This document shows, piece by piece, positions 6,514 through 15,000 of a DNA stretch of 18,353 bases (position 1 is the first letter of the stretch; each line of letters begins with the position of its first letter). Both the position numbers and the translations under genes were made by a program. Source of the stretch: an uncultured Rubellimicrobium sp. (GTDB lineage: Bacteria > Pseudomonadota > Alphaproteobacteria > Rhodobacterales > Rhodobacteraceae); assembly GCA_902805995.1 (NCBI GenBank), contig CADCUU010000077.1:1-18353 (forward strand). Reading direction: 5' to 3'. Under the pieces are notes generated by a model, which saw only the letters and a list, made by a program, of their open reading frames with translations, was not told the origin of the DNA and did no database searches.

Positions 6514-8523
6514 TCAGAGCAGCCCCAGGGCCGTCTGCGCCACGTTCTCGGCGGTGATGCCGAACTTCTCGTAGAGCACCTCGGCCGGGGCGGAGGCACC
6601 GAAGCTCGACATGCCGACGAAGCCCGCCTTCCCCTCGCGACCGCCCTGGCCCAGGAGCCAACGGTCCCAGGGTTGGCGAACGCCCGCCTCGACGGCCACG
6701 CGGACCGCGCCGGGGGGCAGGACCCGCCGCCGCACCTTCTCGTCGGCCTGCGCGAACAGCTCCATCGACGGCATGGACACGACCCGCGTGCCGACGCCCT
6801 GCGCCTCCAGCCGCTCCCGCGCGGCCATGGCGATCTCCACCTCGGACCCCGTGGCGATCAGGATCACCTGCCGCTTGCCCGTGGCCTCGGCCAGGACATA
6901 GGCGCCCTGCGCGGTCAGGTTCTTGTTGGTGTGCTCAGTCCGCACAGGCTTGAGGTTCTGCCGCGACAGCGCCAGCACCGACGGCCCGGCAGAAGTCAGC
7001 GCGATCTCCCACGCCTCCGCCGTCTCCACGGTGTCGGCTGGGCGGAAGACGCGCATCCCCGGCGTCGCCCGCAGCATGGCGAGATGCTCCACCGGCTGGT
7101 GGGTGGGGCCGTCCTCGCCCAGCCCGATGGAGTCGTGCGTCATCACGTAGACGACCCGAGCCCCCATCAGTGCTGACAGCCGCATCGACGGGCGCGCATA
7201 GTCGGCAAAGCACATGAAGGTGCCGCCGTAGGGCAGGACCCCCCCGTGCAGCGCCATGCCGTTCATAGCGGCCGCCATCCCATGCTCGCGGATGCCGTAG
7301 TAGATGTAGCGGCCCTTACGGTTCTCCGGCCCGAAGACGCCCATGTCCTTGGTCAGCGTGTTGTTCGACCCCGTCAGGTCCGCCGACCCGCCCAGCGTTT
7401 CGGGCATGACGGCGTTCACCGCCTCCAGCACCATCTCCGAAGACTTGCGCGTCGCTACAGCCTTCGCGCCGATGGCCGCCTGCTTCACGGTTCGAATGGC
7501 CCCGGCGAGCTTCTTTGGCGGCTCCCCCTCGGCCACGCGGCGGAACTCGGCCTGACGGGCGGCGGGCAGGGCGGCGACGCGCTCCTCCCACTCGGCCCGG
7601 GCCTGCGCGCCGCGGCTCCCCATCTGCTCCCACCGCGCCTTGATGTCGGCGGGAACCTCGAAGGCCGCGTGCTCCCAGCCATAGACGGCCTTGGTATCCG
7701 CCACGAGCTTGGCATCCGTGAGAGCCCCATGCCCCTTGGACGTGTCCTGCGCACTCGACCCCAGGGCGATATGCGTCTTGCAGGCGATCATCGACGGACG
7801 CGGGTCCGCCTTGGCCGCCGTAATGGCCGCGTCGATGGCGGCGGGGTCATGCCCGTCGATGGCCTGCACATGCCAGCCCGACGCCGCGAAGCGCGCCCCC
7901 TGGTCCGTCGCGTCCGAGAGGGACACCTTCCCGTCGATGGTAATCCCGTTGTCGTCGAAGAGCACGATCAGCCGCGACAGCTGCTGCCGTCCAGCGAGCG
8001 CCAGCGCCTCCTGGCTCACGCCTTCCATCAGGCAGCCATCGCCCGCGATCACATAGGTGTGGTGGTCCATGACCTTGACGCCGAACCGCGCCCGCAGCGC
8101 CTCCTCGGCGATGGCGAAGCCCACCGAGTTTGCAAGGCCCTGGCCCAGCGGGCCCGTCGTCGTCTCCACGCCCGTGGTGTGGTGCACCTCCGGATGGCCC
8201 GGCGTGCGCGATTCCCACTGCCGGAAGTCGCGGATCTGCTCCAGCGTCATGTCCGGATAGCCGGTAAGATACAGGAGCGAATACAGCAGCATCGACCCAT
8301 GTCCCGCCGACAGGATGAAGCGGTCGCGGTCGGGCCAGAAGGGGGCCTTGGGGTCGAACCTCAGATGCTTGTCGAACAGCACGGTCGCCACGTCGGCCAT
8401 GCCCATGGGCATCCCCGAATGACCGGAATTGGCGGCCGCGACCGCATCGAGCGTCAGCGTGCGGATCGCGGCGGCCAGCCGCCAATGCTCGAAATGGGCC
8501 TGGCGAAGGCTGGCGATATCCAT
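6514..8523 (-). CDS. tkt: Transketolase
   Basis: 669 residues, full length for the family. It transfers two-carbon ketol units in the pentose phosphate pathway (and the Calvin cycle where present), using thiamine diphosphate and Mg2+, in the cytosol. Visible features are [12 protein letters not shown] (30-41), the TPP/metal motif GDGCLMEG (161-168) followed by [10 protein letters not shown] (189-198), the pyrimidine-domain glutamate region [15 protein letters not shown], and the C-terminal [19 protein letters not shown]. The start is supported by AGGGAGGG 6-7 bases upstream. About 50 bases upstream TTGATC and TTAATC stand 15 bases apart and could form a short-spaced promoter. The gene diverges from the coiled-coil/zapA operon. 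No anomalies are visible. Confidence 0.97.
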
Positions 8524-8702
8524 GTCTATCCCTCCCTTGGGTTGCCGGACTGATTAACAGCCCCCGGGGCAAGATCAAGCGCAGCCTCCAACCCGTTCCC
8601 GCCCATGGGGACTTGGCCGATTGCGGCCCGGAGGCGTTTCCCATACGCTTTGACGAAACAGGCACGCGTCAGGCGGCCAAGTATGACGACGAGGGACGAG
8701 GC

Positions 8703-11316: not shown

Positions 11317-13476
11317 CTACACCAACTCCCGCTCGAACGCCGCGTGCCACTGGCCGACAAGATCCGCCATCGCGGCGGCCTCCCAGCCCAGCCGAATTTC
11401 CGCCCCGCCGATCCGTCCGACGACCGTCGCGGTCACCGCATCCTCACCCGCCGCCGTGAGGATTCCCTCGACGTTCTCCGCCCCAACCGCGAGCAGGTAA
11501 CGCGCCTGATCCTCGCCAAAGAGCGTGGGCAGGTCGCCCGCCTCCAGCACCGCGCCCAGGCCCGCCGCCTCGGCCATCTCGAACGCCGCAAGGGCAAGGC
11601 CCCCATCCGCCAGGTCCGTCGCCGCCCCGATCAGCGGCCTGACACGCAGAACAAGCTCCCCATTTCGCCGCTCCGCATCCAGATCCACCGGCGGCGCGTC
11701 CCCGGCCTCGATCCCCAGCGCCGCGAGCAGCGCCGACTGGCCGAGATGCCCCCGTGTCTCCCCGATCAGGACCAGCACGTCACCGTCGCGGGCCGGCCCC
11801 GCAATGACCTCGTCGAGCGACGCGAGCAGCCCGACGCCGCCGATGGTCGGCGTGGGCAGGATCGCGCTCCCGTCCGTCTCGTTGTATAGGCTCACGTTCC
11901 CCGACACGATGGGGAAGTCGAGCGCCCGGCAGGCCTCGCCGATCCCCTGGATCGCGCCCACGAACTGCCCCATGATCTCGGGCTTCTCCGGGTTCCCGAA
12001 GTTGAGGTTGTCCGTTGCCGCCAAGGGCCGCGCGCCCACCGCCACGAGGTTCCGCCACGCTTCGGCCACGGCCTGCCGTCCGCCCTCCAGCGGGTTCGCC
12101 TTCACGTAGCGCGGCGTCACGTCCGAGGTGAAGGCCACGGCCTTGCCCGTCCCGTGCACCCGTACGACGCCCGCGCCCATCCCCGGCCGCCGCACCGTGT
12201 CGCCGCCCACCTGGCTGTCGTACTGCTGCCAGACCCAGCCCTTCCAGGCGTGGTTCGGGTCCGCCAGCAGCCGCCGCAGCGCCTCGACCGCTCCGATCTC
12301 CGGGATCGCGGGCAGCGCAGCCGGGGCAGGGGTCGGCACCCAGGGCCGGTCATATTCCGGCGCGGAGGACGACAGCTGCGACAGCGGCAGATCCGCCTTC
12401 ACCTCGCCCCCGAGCATGATGAGGAACCTGTCCTCCGGGATCGTCTCACCCACGATGGCGAAGTCGAGATCCCACTTGTCGAAGATCGCCCGCGCCTCGG
12501 CCTCCTTTTCGGGCTTCAGCACCATGAGCATCCGCTCCTGGCTCTCCGACAGCATCATTGCGTAGGCGGTCATGCCCGTCTCGCGCACCGGCACGCGGTC
12601 GAGGTCGAGCCGGATGCCAAGCCCGCCCTTGTCCCCCATCTCCACGGCCGAACAGGTCAGCCCCGCCGCGCCCATGTCCTGAATGGAGATAACGGCGCCG
12701 GAGGCCATCAGCTCCATGCAGGCCTCCATGAGGCGCTTTTCGGTGAAGGGGTCGCCGACCTGCACGGTCGGGCGCTTCTCCTCGATGGTGTCGTCGAACT
12801 CCGCCGAGGCCATGGTCGCGCCGCCCACCCCGTCGCGCCCGGTCTTCGCGCCCAGATACACGACCGGCATCCCCACGCCCGAAGCCGCCGAGTAGAAGAT
12901 CGAATCCGCCTGCGCCAACCCAGCGGCAAAGGCGTTCACGAGGCAGTTGCCGTTATAGGCCCGGTGGAATCGCACCTCGCCCCCGACCGTGGGCACCCCG
13001 AAGGCGTTGCCGTAGCCGCCCACTCCCTCCACGACCCCGGACAGGAGCCGCTTGGTCTTCGGATGCGACGGCTCGCCAAAGGACAGCGCGTTCATCGCCG
13101 CGATGGGCCGCGCCCCCATGGTGAACACGTCCCGCAGGATGCCGCCCACGCCCGTCGCCGCGCCTTGGTAGGGCTCGATGTAGGACGGGTGATTGTGGCT
13201 CTCCATCTTGAAGACGAGGGCCTGACCGTCGCCTAGGTCCACGACGCCCGCATTCTCCCCCGGCCCGCAGATGACCTGGGGCCCGGTCGTGTGCAGCGTC
13301 CGCAGCCAGCGCTTGGAGGACTTGTAGGAACAGTGCTCGTTCCACATGGCCGAAAAGATGCCAAGCTCGGTAAAGGTGGGCACGCGCCCGATGATGCCGA
13401 GCAGCCTTTCGTACTCATCCGGCTTGATGCCATGAGCCGCGACCAGCTCGGAGGTGATCTCGGGTTCAGTGCGCAT
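11317..13476 (-). CDS. purL: Phosphoribosylformylglycinamidine synthase, PurL (small-type)
   Basis: 719 residues from ATG 13476 ([20 protein letters not shown]). The frame is open 43 codons further upstream, but that region overlaps the divergent promoter and lacks resemblance. Length and layout fit small PurL, which works with PurS and PurQ. It makes FGAM from FGAR, ATP and ammonia/glutamine in purine synthesis. Visible motifs are [15 protein letters not shown] (44-58), [37 protein letters not shown] with the conserved histidines, [13 protein letters not shown], and the second-half repeat [15 protein letters not shown] with [14 protein letters not shown] lies a few bases before the start. 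purS and purQ are not in the window. A 10-bp direct repeat lies in the shared upstream region. Confidence 0.97.
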
Positions 13477-13524
13477 GGGGGGCCTCGCGTGGTTTACGGC
13501 TCCATAAGTTCCTGCGAGACAATA

Positions 13525-13551
13525 AGGAAGACGAGTCGGCCAGGAAGACGA
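13525..13551. repeat. 10-bp direct repeat in the purL/small-gene divergent promoter region
   Basis: AGGAAGACGA occurs twice, at 13525-13534 and 13542-13551, with a 17-base period, between the divergent purL and the 95-residue ORF. The spacing of about one and a half helical turns could place two protein-binding half-sites; no regulator is suggested by the sequence itself. Confidence 0.6.
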
Positions 13552-13571
13552 TTCGAGGCGAGGGGGAATGG

Positions 13572-13859
13572 ATGAGCGGTGACGGATCGACCGAGGGTCA
13601 GGCACTTCGGCCCGAGGGGATCACGCCCGCACCCGATCCGGTCCGCCCACGGTTCCTCGGCACCGCCGATCCCACGCCCGAACCCTTGGGCGGCCTGACG
13701 CCTGACACCCCCGCCGAACGCCTAGCCGAGGCACGGCTCAAGCATCCCCAAGGTCGCCCCGTGATGGTGGAGTTCCCCGCCGACCCCGACGCCCTGTCCC
13801 CGGCCGCGGTCGAGGCGCTGGCCGCCATCGTCGATTTGCTGGACGGCGAGGGAAGCTGA
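13572..13859 (+). CDS. Small hypothetical protein
   Basis: 95 residues from ATG 13572, with GAGGGGG 5 bases upstream. An ATG at 13568 is in another frame. The first ~45 residues are Pro/Thr/Gly-rich and probably disordered ([18 protein letters not shown]). The second half is more ordered: [28 protein letters not shown], then an Ala/Leu helix [15 protein letters not shown]. There are no cysteines, no signal peptide and no membrane segment. I do not recognise the family. Third-position GC matches the neighbourhood, and the good ribosome binding site and divergence from purL support a real gene. Confidence 0.65.
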
Positions 13860-13917
13860 CCCGCCCCGGCTGGAGTGACTCCCCCAATCGAATGAGGCCA
13901 GTCAGCACCGTCCGGGC

Positions 13918-13946
13918 AAAAAAAAGCCGGGCACAATGGCCCGGCT
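13918..13946 (-). terminator. Strong intrinsic terminator (minus strand)
   Basis: Perfect 8-bp stem AGCCGGGC (13925-13932) with GCCCGGCT (13939-13946), 6-base loop, followed on the minus strand by seven T. This is the best intrinsic terminator in the window. It would end the candidate sRNA and any read-through from the LysR gene 150 bases upstream. Confidence 0.85.
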
Positions 13947-13998
13947 AAGTCCAACAGGGAGGTTGAAGATGATGAGCGCGAGGCGTCATCCGCTTCGA
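13918..13998 (-). ncRNA. Candidate trans-acting sRNA with anti-Shine-Dalgarno loop (suhB/alpha-r8-like)
   Basis: Read on the minus strand this holds three consecutive stem-loops. SL1 (13990-13971): GATGA/TCATC plus CGC/GCG with one bulged base and a 3-base loop. SL2 (13967-13950): a 6-bp stem UUCAAC/GUUGGA (one U-G pair) closing a six-base CUCCCU loop, complementary to Shine-Dalgarno sequences. SL3 (13946-13925): a perfect 8-bp AGCCGGGC/GCCCGGCU terminator stem with seven U following. Promoter-like boxes place the 5' end near 13997, for an RNA of about 80 bases. Exposed CUCCC-type loops and this size are features of alphaproteobacterial sRNAs such as suhB/alpha-r8 (MmgR) or the CcsR RNAs. Membership is unverified; the alternative is a structured 3' end of the LysR mRNA. 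A terminator also exists here under either reading. Confidence 0.6.
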
Positions 13999-14003
13999 CC
14001 GCT

Positions 14004-14032
14004 CAATTAGTGGGCGAATGCGGCATCATCAA
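14004..14032 (-). promoter_or_regulatory. Possible promoter of the candidate sRNA
   Basis: On the minus strand TTGATG (14027-14032) is followed after 17 bases by TAATTG (14004-14009). The -35 box matches four of six consensus positions; the -10 box is weak, though the overlapping ACTAAT is a better match with 15-base spacing. Transcription would start near 13997, just ahead of the first hairpin. Confidence 0.35.
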
Positions 14033-14064
14033 GTCGCAAACGTGAACGCTATCAGCATACCTGA

Positions 14065-14081
14065 CATGCATTCCTTGCATG
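14065..14081. repeat. Inverted repeat CATGCA-N5-TGCATG just past the LysR stop
   Basis: Perfect 6-bp arms with a 5-base centre, starting 17 bases downstream of the minus-strand LysR stop codon and upstream of the candidate sRNA. No T-run follows, so it is not an obvious terminator. It may be a protein-binding site for control of the sRNA. Confidence 0.4.
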
Positions 14082-14097
14082 CCTCAACCCAAGGTTG

Positions 14098-15000
14098 TCA
14101 CGCCACCGCGTCGCGGATCCGACGGCGATGGGCGATCACCTCTTCCTGCACAAAGTCGCGGAACACCGTGACCCGCTTGGACTGGCGAAGCTCCTCGGGG
14201 TAGGCCAGGAACACCGGCACCTCGCCCGACACGACCTCAGGGAGCACCCGCACAAGCTGCGGAAAGTCTTCCGTGACATAGTCCGGCAAAATCCCGACGC
14301 CGAGGTCGTTCAGCGTCGCCTGAAGAACGCCGAAGTAGTTGTTGATCGTCAGCAGGCTCTGCGGCTCGTGCCGCATCAGCTCCTGCGCAAGGCTCGCCCC
14401 CGCCGTCACCTGCGGCGAGCTCGGCCCCTGCGTGATGACCCGGTGGCTCGCAATCTGCTCGATCCGCTCGAGCGGCGGCGACCGCTCCAGATAGGTGATC
14501 GAGGCATAGGGCGCGAGCCGGATCCCCATGAGCTTCTTGCGGATGAGGTCGGCCTGCGACGGCTCCTTCATGCGGATCGCCACGTCGGCCTCGCGCATGG
14601 GCAGGTCCAGCACCCGCTCCTCCAGCATGAGGTCGATCCGCAGGTCCGGGTAGCGCTCATAAAGCTTCGGCAGCCGCGGCGCGAGCCAGAGCGTTCCGAA
14701 GGCCAGCGTCGTCGTCACGCGGAGGTCGCCCAGCACCTCCTCCTCGCTGTCGCGGATGCGCGCGGCGGCGGCCTCCAGCCGCTTGTTCATCGACCGCGTC
14801 GCCTCGAATAGAAGCTCGCCCTGCTCGGTCAGGATCAGCCCCCGCGCGTGACGATGGAAAAGGGTGGTGCCCAGGCTTTCCTCCAGCGACCGGATCTGCC
14901 GGCTCACGGCGGACTGGCTCAGATGAAGGCTGTCCCCGGCATGGGTGAGGCTTCCCGCATCCGCGACGGCGTGGAAGATGCGCAGCTTGTCCCAGTCCAT
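14098..15000 (-). CDS. LysR-family transcriptional regulator
   Basis: 300 residues from ATG 15000 (MDWDKLRIFHAVADAGSLTH), preceded by GAGGGAGAGG. The frame is open 23 codons further upstream, through the operator region, without family resemblance. The winged helix-turn-helix is clear: SLTHAGDSLHLSQSAVSRQI (residues 17-36), then RSLEESLGTTLFHRHARG. The effector domain follows, with LRVTTTLAFGTLWLAPRLPKL and the ERVLDLPMREADVAIRMKEP stretch typical of the substrate-binding fold. The upstream region carries a LysR-type T-N11-A dyad, suggesting autoregulation. The target genes are unknown; murI lies upstream in the opposite direction but 475 bases away. The probable sRNA gene lies directly downstream on the same strand. 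Confidence 0.93.
   Translation of the reverse strand: MDWDKLRIFHAVADAGSLTHAGDSLHLSQSAVSRQIRSLEESLGTTLFHRHARGLILTEQGELLFEATRSMNKRLEAAAARIRDSEEEVLGDLRVTTTLAFGTLWLAPRLPKLYERYPDLRIDLMLEERVLDLPMREADVAIRMKEPSQADLIRKKLMGIRLAPYASITYLERSPPLERIEQIASHRVITQGPSSPQVTAGASLAQELMRHEPQSLLTINNYFGVLQATLNDLGVGILPDYVTEDFPQLVRVLPEVVSGEVPVFLAYPEELRQSKRVTVFRDFVQEEVIAHRRRIRDAVA

Follow-up and report, generated by a model that had tools for sequence, protein, structure and literature searches.

On its minus strand, downstream of a gene for a LysR-type regulator, the window (the whole 18,353-nt stretch analysed here, from an uncultured Rubellimicrobium sp.) carries what looks like a real small RNA (sRNA) gene with promoter boxes and a terminator. 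With a probability of about 0.7, we read it as an independent gene and the counterpart of SorY, which would be controlled by the adjacent LysR protein, act through an anti-Shine-Dalgarno (anti-SD) core and represent the Rhodobacterales form of the VtlR/LsrB-AbcR circuit. As an RNA it falls into a known bacterial stress family; what is useful is the joining of two literatures. The reading names a candidate transcription factor for SorY, the missing one if the reading is true, and offers a reason for the resemblance between SorX and SorY. The features are the following:

13918..13998, minus strand: sRNA gene of the SorX/SorY family (Rfam RF02784, 48.6 bits at 13919-13995; model R2; synteny)
about 13998, minus strand: predicted 5' end of the sRNA (from sequence only)
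13965..13996, minus strand: SL1, closing stem GAAG/CUUC plus inner stem (folding, 133 relatives)
13947..13963, minus strand: conserved core ACCUCCCUGUUGGACUU, including the anti-SD motif CUCCCU at 13961-13956 (sequence, alignment A1)
13918..13946, minus strand: intrinsic terminator (stem 13946-13939/13932-13925, U run 13925-13918)
14005..14033, minus strand: putative promoter, -35 CTTGAT (14033-14028), 17-nt spacer, -10 CTAATT (14010-14005), read from the sequence
14066..14080, minus strand: LTTR-type box ATGC-N7-GCAT (T-N11-A), from the sequence
14057..14069, minus strand: GCAT-N3-AG-N3-T, one mismatch to the published LsrB/VtlR motif GCAT-N3-TG-N3-T (described in PMC8844928)
14098..15000, minus strand: LysR-type regulator of 300 aa, likely start ATG 15000, proposed VtlR/LsrB orthologue
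11317..13605, minus strand: purL, downstream synteny marker (NCBIfam PRK01213, 942.8 bits); the limits are those of the listed ORF and the real start may be internal

Family, locus and structure of the RNA

The interval extends from the LysR stop at 14098 to the end of a convergent ORF at 13859. On the minus strand, the T-N11-A box is followed in order by the GCAT motif, the promoter, SL1, the core and the terminator with eight U. The 81-mer 13998-13918 has a predicted folding energy of -30.8 kcal/mol; 200 dinucleotide shuffles average -20.3 (sd 3.1), which gives z -3.35, and 2 of the 200 fold equally well. The minus-strand sRNA candidate with terminator and promoter-like boxes that the initial annotation proposed is largely borne out by this fold and by a SorX match above the Rfam cut-off; the U run behind its terminator is also present, with eight U (13925-13918) instead of the claimed seven.

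In an Rfam scan, SorX (RF02784) scored 48.6 bits, above the gathering threshold of 46.6. It was the sole Rfam match at cut-off, and its E-value of 2.8e-9 for the whole window indicates more than chance. SorY (RF02651) gave the window 38.5 bits against a gathering threshold of 111. By score the SorX label holds, but the position is that of SorY, because Cereibacter azotoformans has its SorY match at cut-off (111.4 bits, cut-off 111, L161:7873-7954) directly downstream of a LysR orthologue, 72% identical to that of the window. SorX is located behind ompR, whereas the window RNA has LysR upstream. The window RNA is of the SorX/SorY family and, by position as judged on C. azotoformans, the SorY counterpart.

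SorY of R. sphaeroides (RSs1543) resembles the window RNA, as judged on C. azotoformans, in its LysR linkage, the putative promoter between LysR and the RNA, an SL1 ending in CUUCA, the core ACCUCCCUGUUGGACUU and a terminator; it differs in the sequences of SL1 and terminator, and the window RNA stays below its Rfam cut-off. SorX (RSs2461, R. sphaeroides) shares the core and the terminator with the window RNA, which also scores over the SorX cut-off. However, SorX is described as cut from the ompR-1 (RSP_0847) mRNA with RNase E (PMC6238624), while the window RNA is LysR-linked and has promoter boxes of its own. SorY has its own promoter according to the same source (PMC6238624) and is described as RpoHI/RpoHII-dependent and Hfq-bound; SorX is also RpoHI/RpoHII-dependent (PMC5036791).

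Matches to the SorX model at E <= 0.01, often several per genome, were found in 45 of 61 genomes (the own genome and 60 relatives). Among the 183 non-redundant core loci listed, 136 have the window's type of LysR gene upstream on the same strand, and 83 of these also have purL downstream; a further 24 have OmpR upstream, 7 purL only, and 16 none of these. Of the 183, 114 stem from a scan with a SorY-like core, whose loci (L098-L216, among the matches listed) are biased to that core; without these 114, 35 loci are LysR-linked, 24 OmpR-linked and 10 neither. The LysR-linked set, termed Rhodobacterales here, includes one locus of another family (L061 in G037, the same as L231 of the class set), and in G024 (L036) and G011 (L057) the LysR protein is only 52-55% identical. 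Within the family of the window, 33 of 37 genomes show a LysR-linked copy, including all eight of the genus; G015, G021, G029 and G036 show none. Tandem copies of the RNA occur, two beside LysR in L041 and two beside OmpR in both L014 and L019. An OmpR-linked SorX was found in five of the seven other genus genomes, and none among the examined loci of the own genome (G000, 85% complete).

Structure was judged by folding each sequence singly. RNAalifold on the sequence alignments gave no usable consensus structure, we think because the stems were misaligned. Of the three hairpins proposed by the initial annotation, SL1 and the terminator are conserved and the proposed SL2 stem is not. SL1 extends beyond the 13990-13971 given there, from GAAG (13996-13993) to CUUC (13968-13965). 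At least four paired bases within the 14 nt before the core were found in 131 of the 133 LysR-linked relatives listed, in which the 5' 42 nt averaged z -3.1 relative to mononucleotide shuffles and the closing tetranucleotides of SL1 comprised 31 different pairs, including GAAG/CUUC, GAGG/CCUC and AAGG/CCUU. The SL2 stem CAAC/GUUG (13965-13952), by contrast, is absent from the minimum-energy fold of the window RNA; all four of its pairs can form in 7 of the same 133 relatives, and in 2 their mean pair probability exceeds 0.5.

The CUCCCU motif, read as a hairpin loop in the initial annotation, proved real and strongly conserved, as part of a core and not of a loop. The core is almost invariant in alignment A1, an invariance that is partly selection, the sequences having been picked by core. 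A1 holds 56 of 73 non-redundant sequences drawn from the 133, and A2 holds 42 of 44. The core is not strictly single-stranded: the mean unpaired probability of CUCCCU exceeds 0.7 in just 30 of the 133 sequences listed, and the window RNA has a weak predicted CC-UGUU-GG pairing. SL1 and the terminator flank the single core ACCUCCCUGUUGGACUU.

Putative promoter and LTTR-type box

With a loose pattern, promoter-like boxes were found at 110 of the 136 LysR-linked loci listed (shuffles 5.1%) and at one of the 24 OmpR-linked loci; without the core-scan loci, the LysR-linked count is 25 of 35. The LTTR-type box ATG[CT]N7GCAT is present at 101 of the 136 (shuffles 1.7%; OmpR-linked 0 of 24; without core-scan loci 23 of 35) and stands 46-47 nt upstream of the -35 element in 76 of the LysR-linked loci listed. 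The motif GCAT-N3-NG-N3-T occurs at 112 of the 136 listed (shuffles 6.4%), and the T of the published LsrB motif is T in only 10 of the 114 LysR-linked loci having the motif, among the loci listed. For S. meliloti, PabcR1 is described as carrying T-N11-A motifs and GCAT-N3-TG-N3-T at -61 to -49, bound by LsrB; LsrB drives AbcR1, whereas AbcR2 (PabcR2) is RpoH1-dependent and independent of LsrB (PMC8844928). Relative to the predicted start, the GCAT motif of the window would fall at about -71 to -59, compared with the published -61 to -49.

By analogy with published SorY, a heat-shock-type or housekeeping sigma factor may transcribe the gene from CTTGAT/CTAATT. The adjacent LysR protein would bind the T-N11-A box, which is itself present in the sequence, and switch the sRNA gene, an independent unit as we read it, downstream of the Rhodobacterales VtlR/LsrB orthologue.

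The initial annotation had also considered a product of the LysR 3'-UTR. The window RNA is probably no such product, because promoter-like boxes stand between LysR and the RNA, and these boxes characterize the LysR-linked loci listed and not the OmpR-linked ones. The related proposal that it is simply SorX, derived from a 3'-UTR and freed from the upstream mRNA by RNase E, would agree with SorX being the only Rfam match at cut-off and with a same-strand position downstream of a regulator gene. We nonetheless regard it as improbable: true SorX is described as coming from the ompR-1 mRNA (PMC6238624), the counts for promoter and LTTR boxes separate LysR-linked from OmpR-linked loci, and the bona fide SorY of C. 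azotoformans is LysR-linked. It is scarcely credible that the locus holds the terminator of the LysR gene and no separate RNA. A strong terminator does start about 150 nt past the LysR stop, but the conservation of the promoter boxes, SL1 and core goes further than a terminator would require, and members of the SorX/SorY family are described as expressed sRNAs (PMC6238624, PMC5036791). The alternative of a stress sRNA under an RpoH sigma factor alone, with the T-N11-A box a relic or in other use and with LysR taking no part, is in line with the RpoHI/RpoHII dependence described for R. sphaeroides SorY and SorX (PMC5036791) and with the AbcR2 of S. meliloti, which needs RpoH1 and not LsrB (PMC8844928). 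We consider it doubtful, given that the box is kept at 101 of the 136 loci listed and at a fixed distance from the -35 element in 76, and that the linkage to LysR persists in other families.

A proposed regulator-sRNA pair across the class

One match per genome to the LysR protein was obtained at E <= 1e-60 in 131 of 240 genomes of the class. Three of these (G000, G061 and G190) belong to the family of the window and 128 lie outside; the 87 class loci used below are the better-scoring part of the 128, with G261, G223 and G198 passed over. In the first 64 residues of the window protein, the DNA-binding part, 55 equal the class consensus, and its best PDB match is the LysR-family protein 9hh1 (E 1.3e-68). 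The motif C[AS][TV]CDG, which we take to be of the thioredoxin-reductase type (trxB-like), precedes LysR on the same strand in 76 of the 86 class loci with enough sequence, and trxB was found upstream in none of 75 Rhodobacterales loci. Published descriptions place vtlR between trxB and abcR1/abcR2 (PMC7486931). We propose that the window LysR is a VtlR/LsrB orthologue, the rhizobial proteins being known here by published description.

A redox switch by conserved LysR cysteines is unsupported: there is no cysteine in the window protein, and every cysteine column stays below 15% of 82 class proteins. Among the LysR-linked proteins listed, a cysteine at position 190 is present in 93 of 126. A cysteine redox switch is described for S. 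meliloti LsrB (PMC8844928), but a switch of this type is not general, because 30 of the 126 LysR proteins listed have no cysteine.

The class core CCTCCCTGTT, with at most one mismatch and on the same strand downstream of LysR, was found within 450 nt in 57 of the 87 class loci (shuffles 2.2%) and within 600 nt in 60; the other 27 have no core within 600 nt of LysR. An exact ATGC-N7-GCAT is present in 45 of the 87 (shuffles 0.9%), and a loosened LsrB motif in only 34. In 46 of the 60 class loci having the core, a hairpin 5' to it carries a second CTCCC in its loop, often ACGTCTCCCAGACGT, compared with 1 of the 136 LysR-linked loci listed; the window lacks this second motif. Such a second CUCCC hairpin, carried by a related RNA that many other alphaproteobacterial families have at the position of the window RNA, appears to have been lost in Rhodobacterales. 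In L228, L225 and L257, several CUCCC-like pyrimidine-rich stretches precede the terminator by eye, as if the module had been multiplied.

Two homology models were built, R1 from 56 LysR-linked sequences and R2 from class RNAs alone. They hold 2 and 3 pairs, respectively, and are almost pure sequence models; the GC-rich terminator and the U run contribute to every score, and the E-values of both are rough. Searched against the 87 class loci, R1 matched 30 times at E <= 0.1, each time on the same strand downstream of LysR and 116-483 nt from it. In the reciprocal test, R2 matched the window only at 13918-13996(-), with E 7.4e-11. Across 240 whole genomes, 54 R1 matches fell outside the family; 16 of them lie on the same strand at most 700 nt downstream of LysR, where by our estimate from genome size chance would give clearly less than one. 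The remaining 38 do not adjoin LysR: three lie 1.8-5.6 kb downstream of it, two about 8 kb upstream and 33 elsewhere. In the three downstream cases (G069:C22:20642-20731, G198:C4:1339925-1340007 and G201:C1:235145-235232), the match stands as if separated from LysR.

Among 20 class loci put through the Rfam scan, 16 have the core and none reached a cut-off; the locus points to an RNA that is spread widely through the class and that, at these 20 loci, stays below the Rfam thresholds. With lax thresholds on eight class loci, seven matched SorX below cut-off (25.3-44.1 bits) and L226 did not. The initial annotation had placed the RNA with the alphaproteobacterial sRNAs, which stands, and within them with suhB/alpha-r8 (MmgR) or CcsR, which does not fit by Rfam score: suhB (RF00519) gave 18.8 bits in the window against a gathering threshold of 41. 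Membership of the suhB/MmgR or CcsR/cuckoo group is accordingly very improbable, although a C-rich anti-SD core is common to the suhB group, suhB (alpha-r8) RNAs also share the terminator, and suhB scored 24.4-35.1 bits on six of the eight class loci. The window RNA and suhB may yet share a wider superfamily. At 13918-13974(-), the window also has weak Rfam matches to the toxic sRNA family of betaproteobacteria (28.8 bits, cut-off 50) and to anti-hemB (20.0 bits, cut-off 49.5), which may hint at a wider likeness among anti-SD sRNAs.

The ar15/AbcR model (RF02345, gathering threshold 40) had no match at E <= 10 in 13800-14150, and it detected nothing in the 240 class genomes or in 14 controls. 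As far as published descriptions allow a comparison, AbcR1 and AbcR2 (alpha-r15) of Rhizobiales share with the window an upstream LysR, T-N11-A, a CTTGA-type promoter, a CUCCC anti-SD motif and a terminator (PMC7486931, PMC8844928, PMC5461406, PMC3712013). They are longer, 121 nt for AbcR1 and 114 nt for AbcR2 of S. meliloti (PMC8844928), whereas the window RNA has about 80 nt and one module; Brucella AbcR is described with M1 CUCCCA in its first hairpin (PMC5461406), while the window RNA lacks a CUCCC in a 5' hairpin.

LysR-type regulators beside an sRNA that they control are known from the enterobacterial pairs GcvA-GcvB and OxyR-OxyS. In these the two genes are divergent, whereas the window sRNA lies on the same strand downstream of LysR.

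The locus is probably one end of an LsrB/VtlR-AbcR-like circuit that extends across the class, simplified here to one module. We lean slightly towards the further view that SorY, SorX and rhizobial AbcR are branches of one ancestral circuit, made of LsrB/VtlR and a two-module anti-SD sRNA, of which Rhodobacterales would have dropped the 5' module, kept the order of LysR, box and promoter, and put a SorX copy behind ompR. SorX would then be the relative that sits behind ompR. The photooxidative-stress sRNAs of Rhodobacter and the transporter-controlling AbcR of rhizobia and Brucella may thus describe one conserved regulator-sRNA pair; among open-access papers, the literature covered, we found none that joins SorX or SorY with AbcR.

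Predicted targets

In the preferred reading, the CCUCCC of the core would pair with GGGAGG-type ribosome binding sites and lower the translation or stability of mRNAs. Transporter mRNAs would be the likeliest targets, by analogy with published SorY, SorX and AbcR targets: SorY is described as acting on takP (PMC6238624), SorX on a spermidine transporter subunit (PMC8307010), and AbcR1/2, through anti-SD motifs, on large numbers of mRNAs for transport and metabolism (PMC8844928). GGGAG-type sites do precede the genes that the initial annotation called mmsA (GGGAGG at 494, ATG 482), CBS (site 1501, ATG 1512) and bolA (GGGAG ahead of ATG 11155), and also tkt and DoxX. The block on many mRNAs suggested there is plausible from the published relatives, but a test for target specificity came out negative.

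That test searched the eight genus genomes for ACAGGGAGG-N3-10-ATG, the core complement plus a start codon. It gave 103 matches, 13 of which read as antisense to SorY/SorX copies; 87 of the remaining 90 were examined, 78 had an ORF of at least 60 aa, and 77 were scanned, one duplicate having been dropped. Solute-binding proteins account for at least 13 of these 77, for 0 of 21 with the control GCTGGGAGG and for at least 6 of 26 with the permuted control CAAGGGAGG. For eight other genera, the figures were at least 5 of 24 with the complement and at least 8 of 28 with the permuted control (one duplicate dropped). The loci taken per search were 30 of 51, 30 of 107, 30 of 78 and 30 of 96 matches, and the Pfam tallies, which cover at most 25 families each, are lower bounds. 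Complementarity beyond GGGAGG brought no enrichment of transporter genes over the permuted control in the eight genus genomes and the eight other genera. Transporter genes are thus frequent among those preceded by GGGAGG, and extra complementarity adds nothing. In the window, a strong site, CAAGGGAGGGATAGACATG, was observed at the transketolase gene (8521-8539, minus strand); GGGAGG genes of the genus often encode solute-binding proteins.
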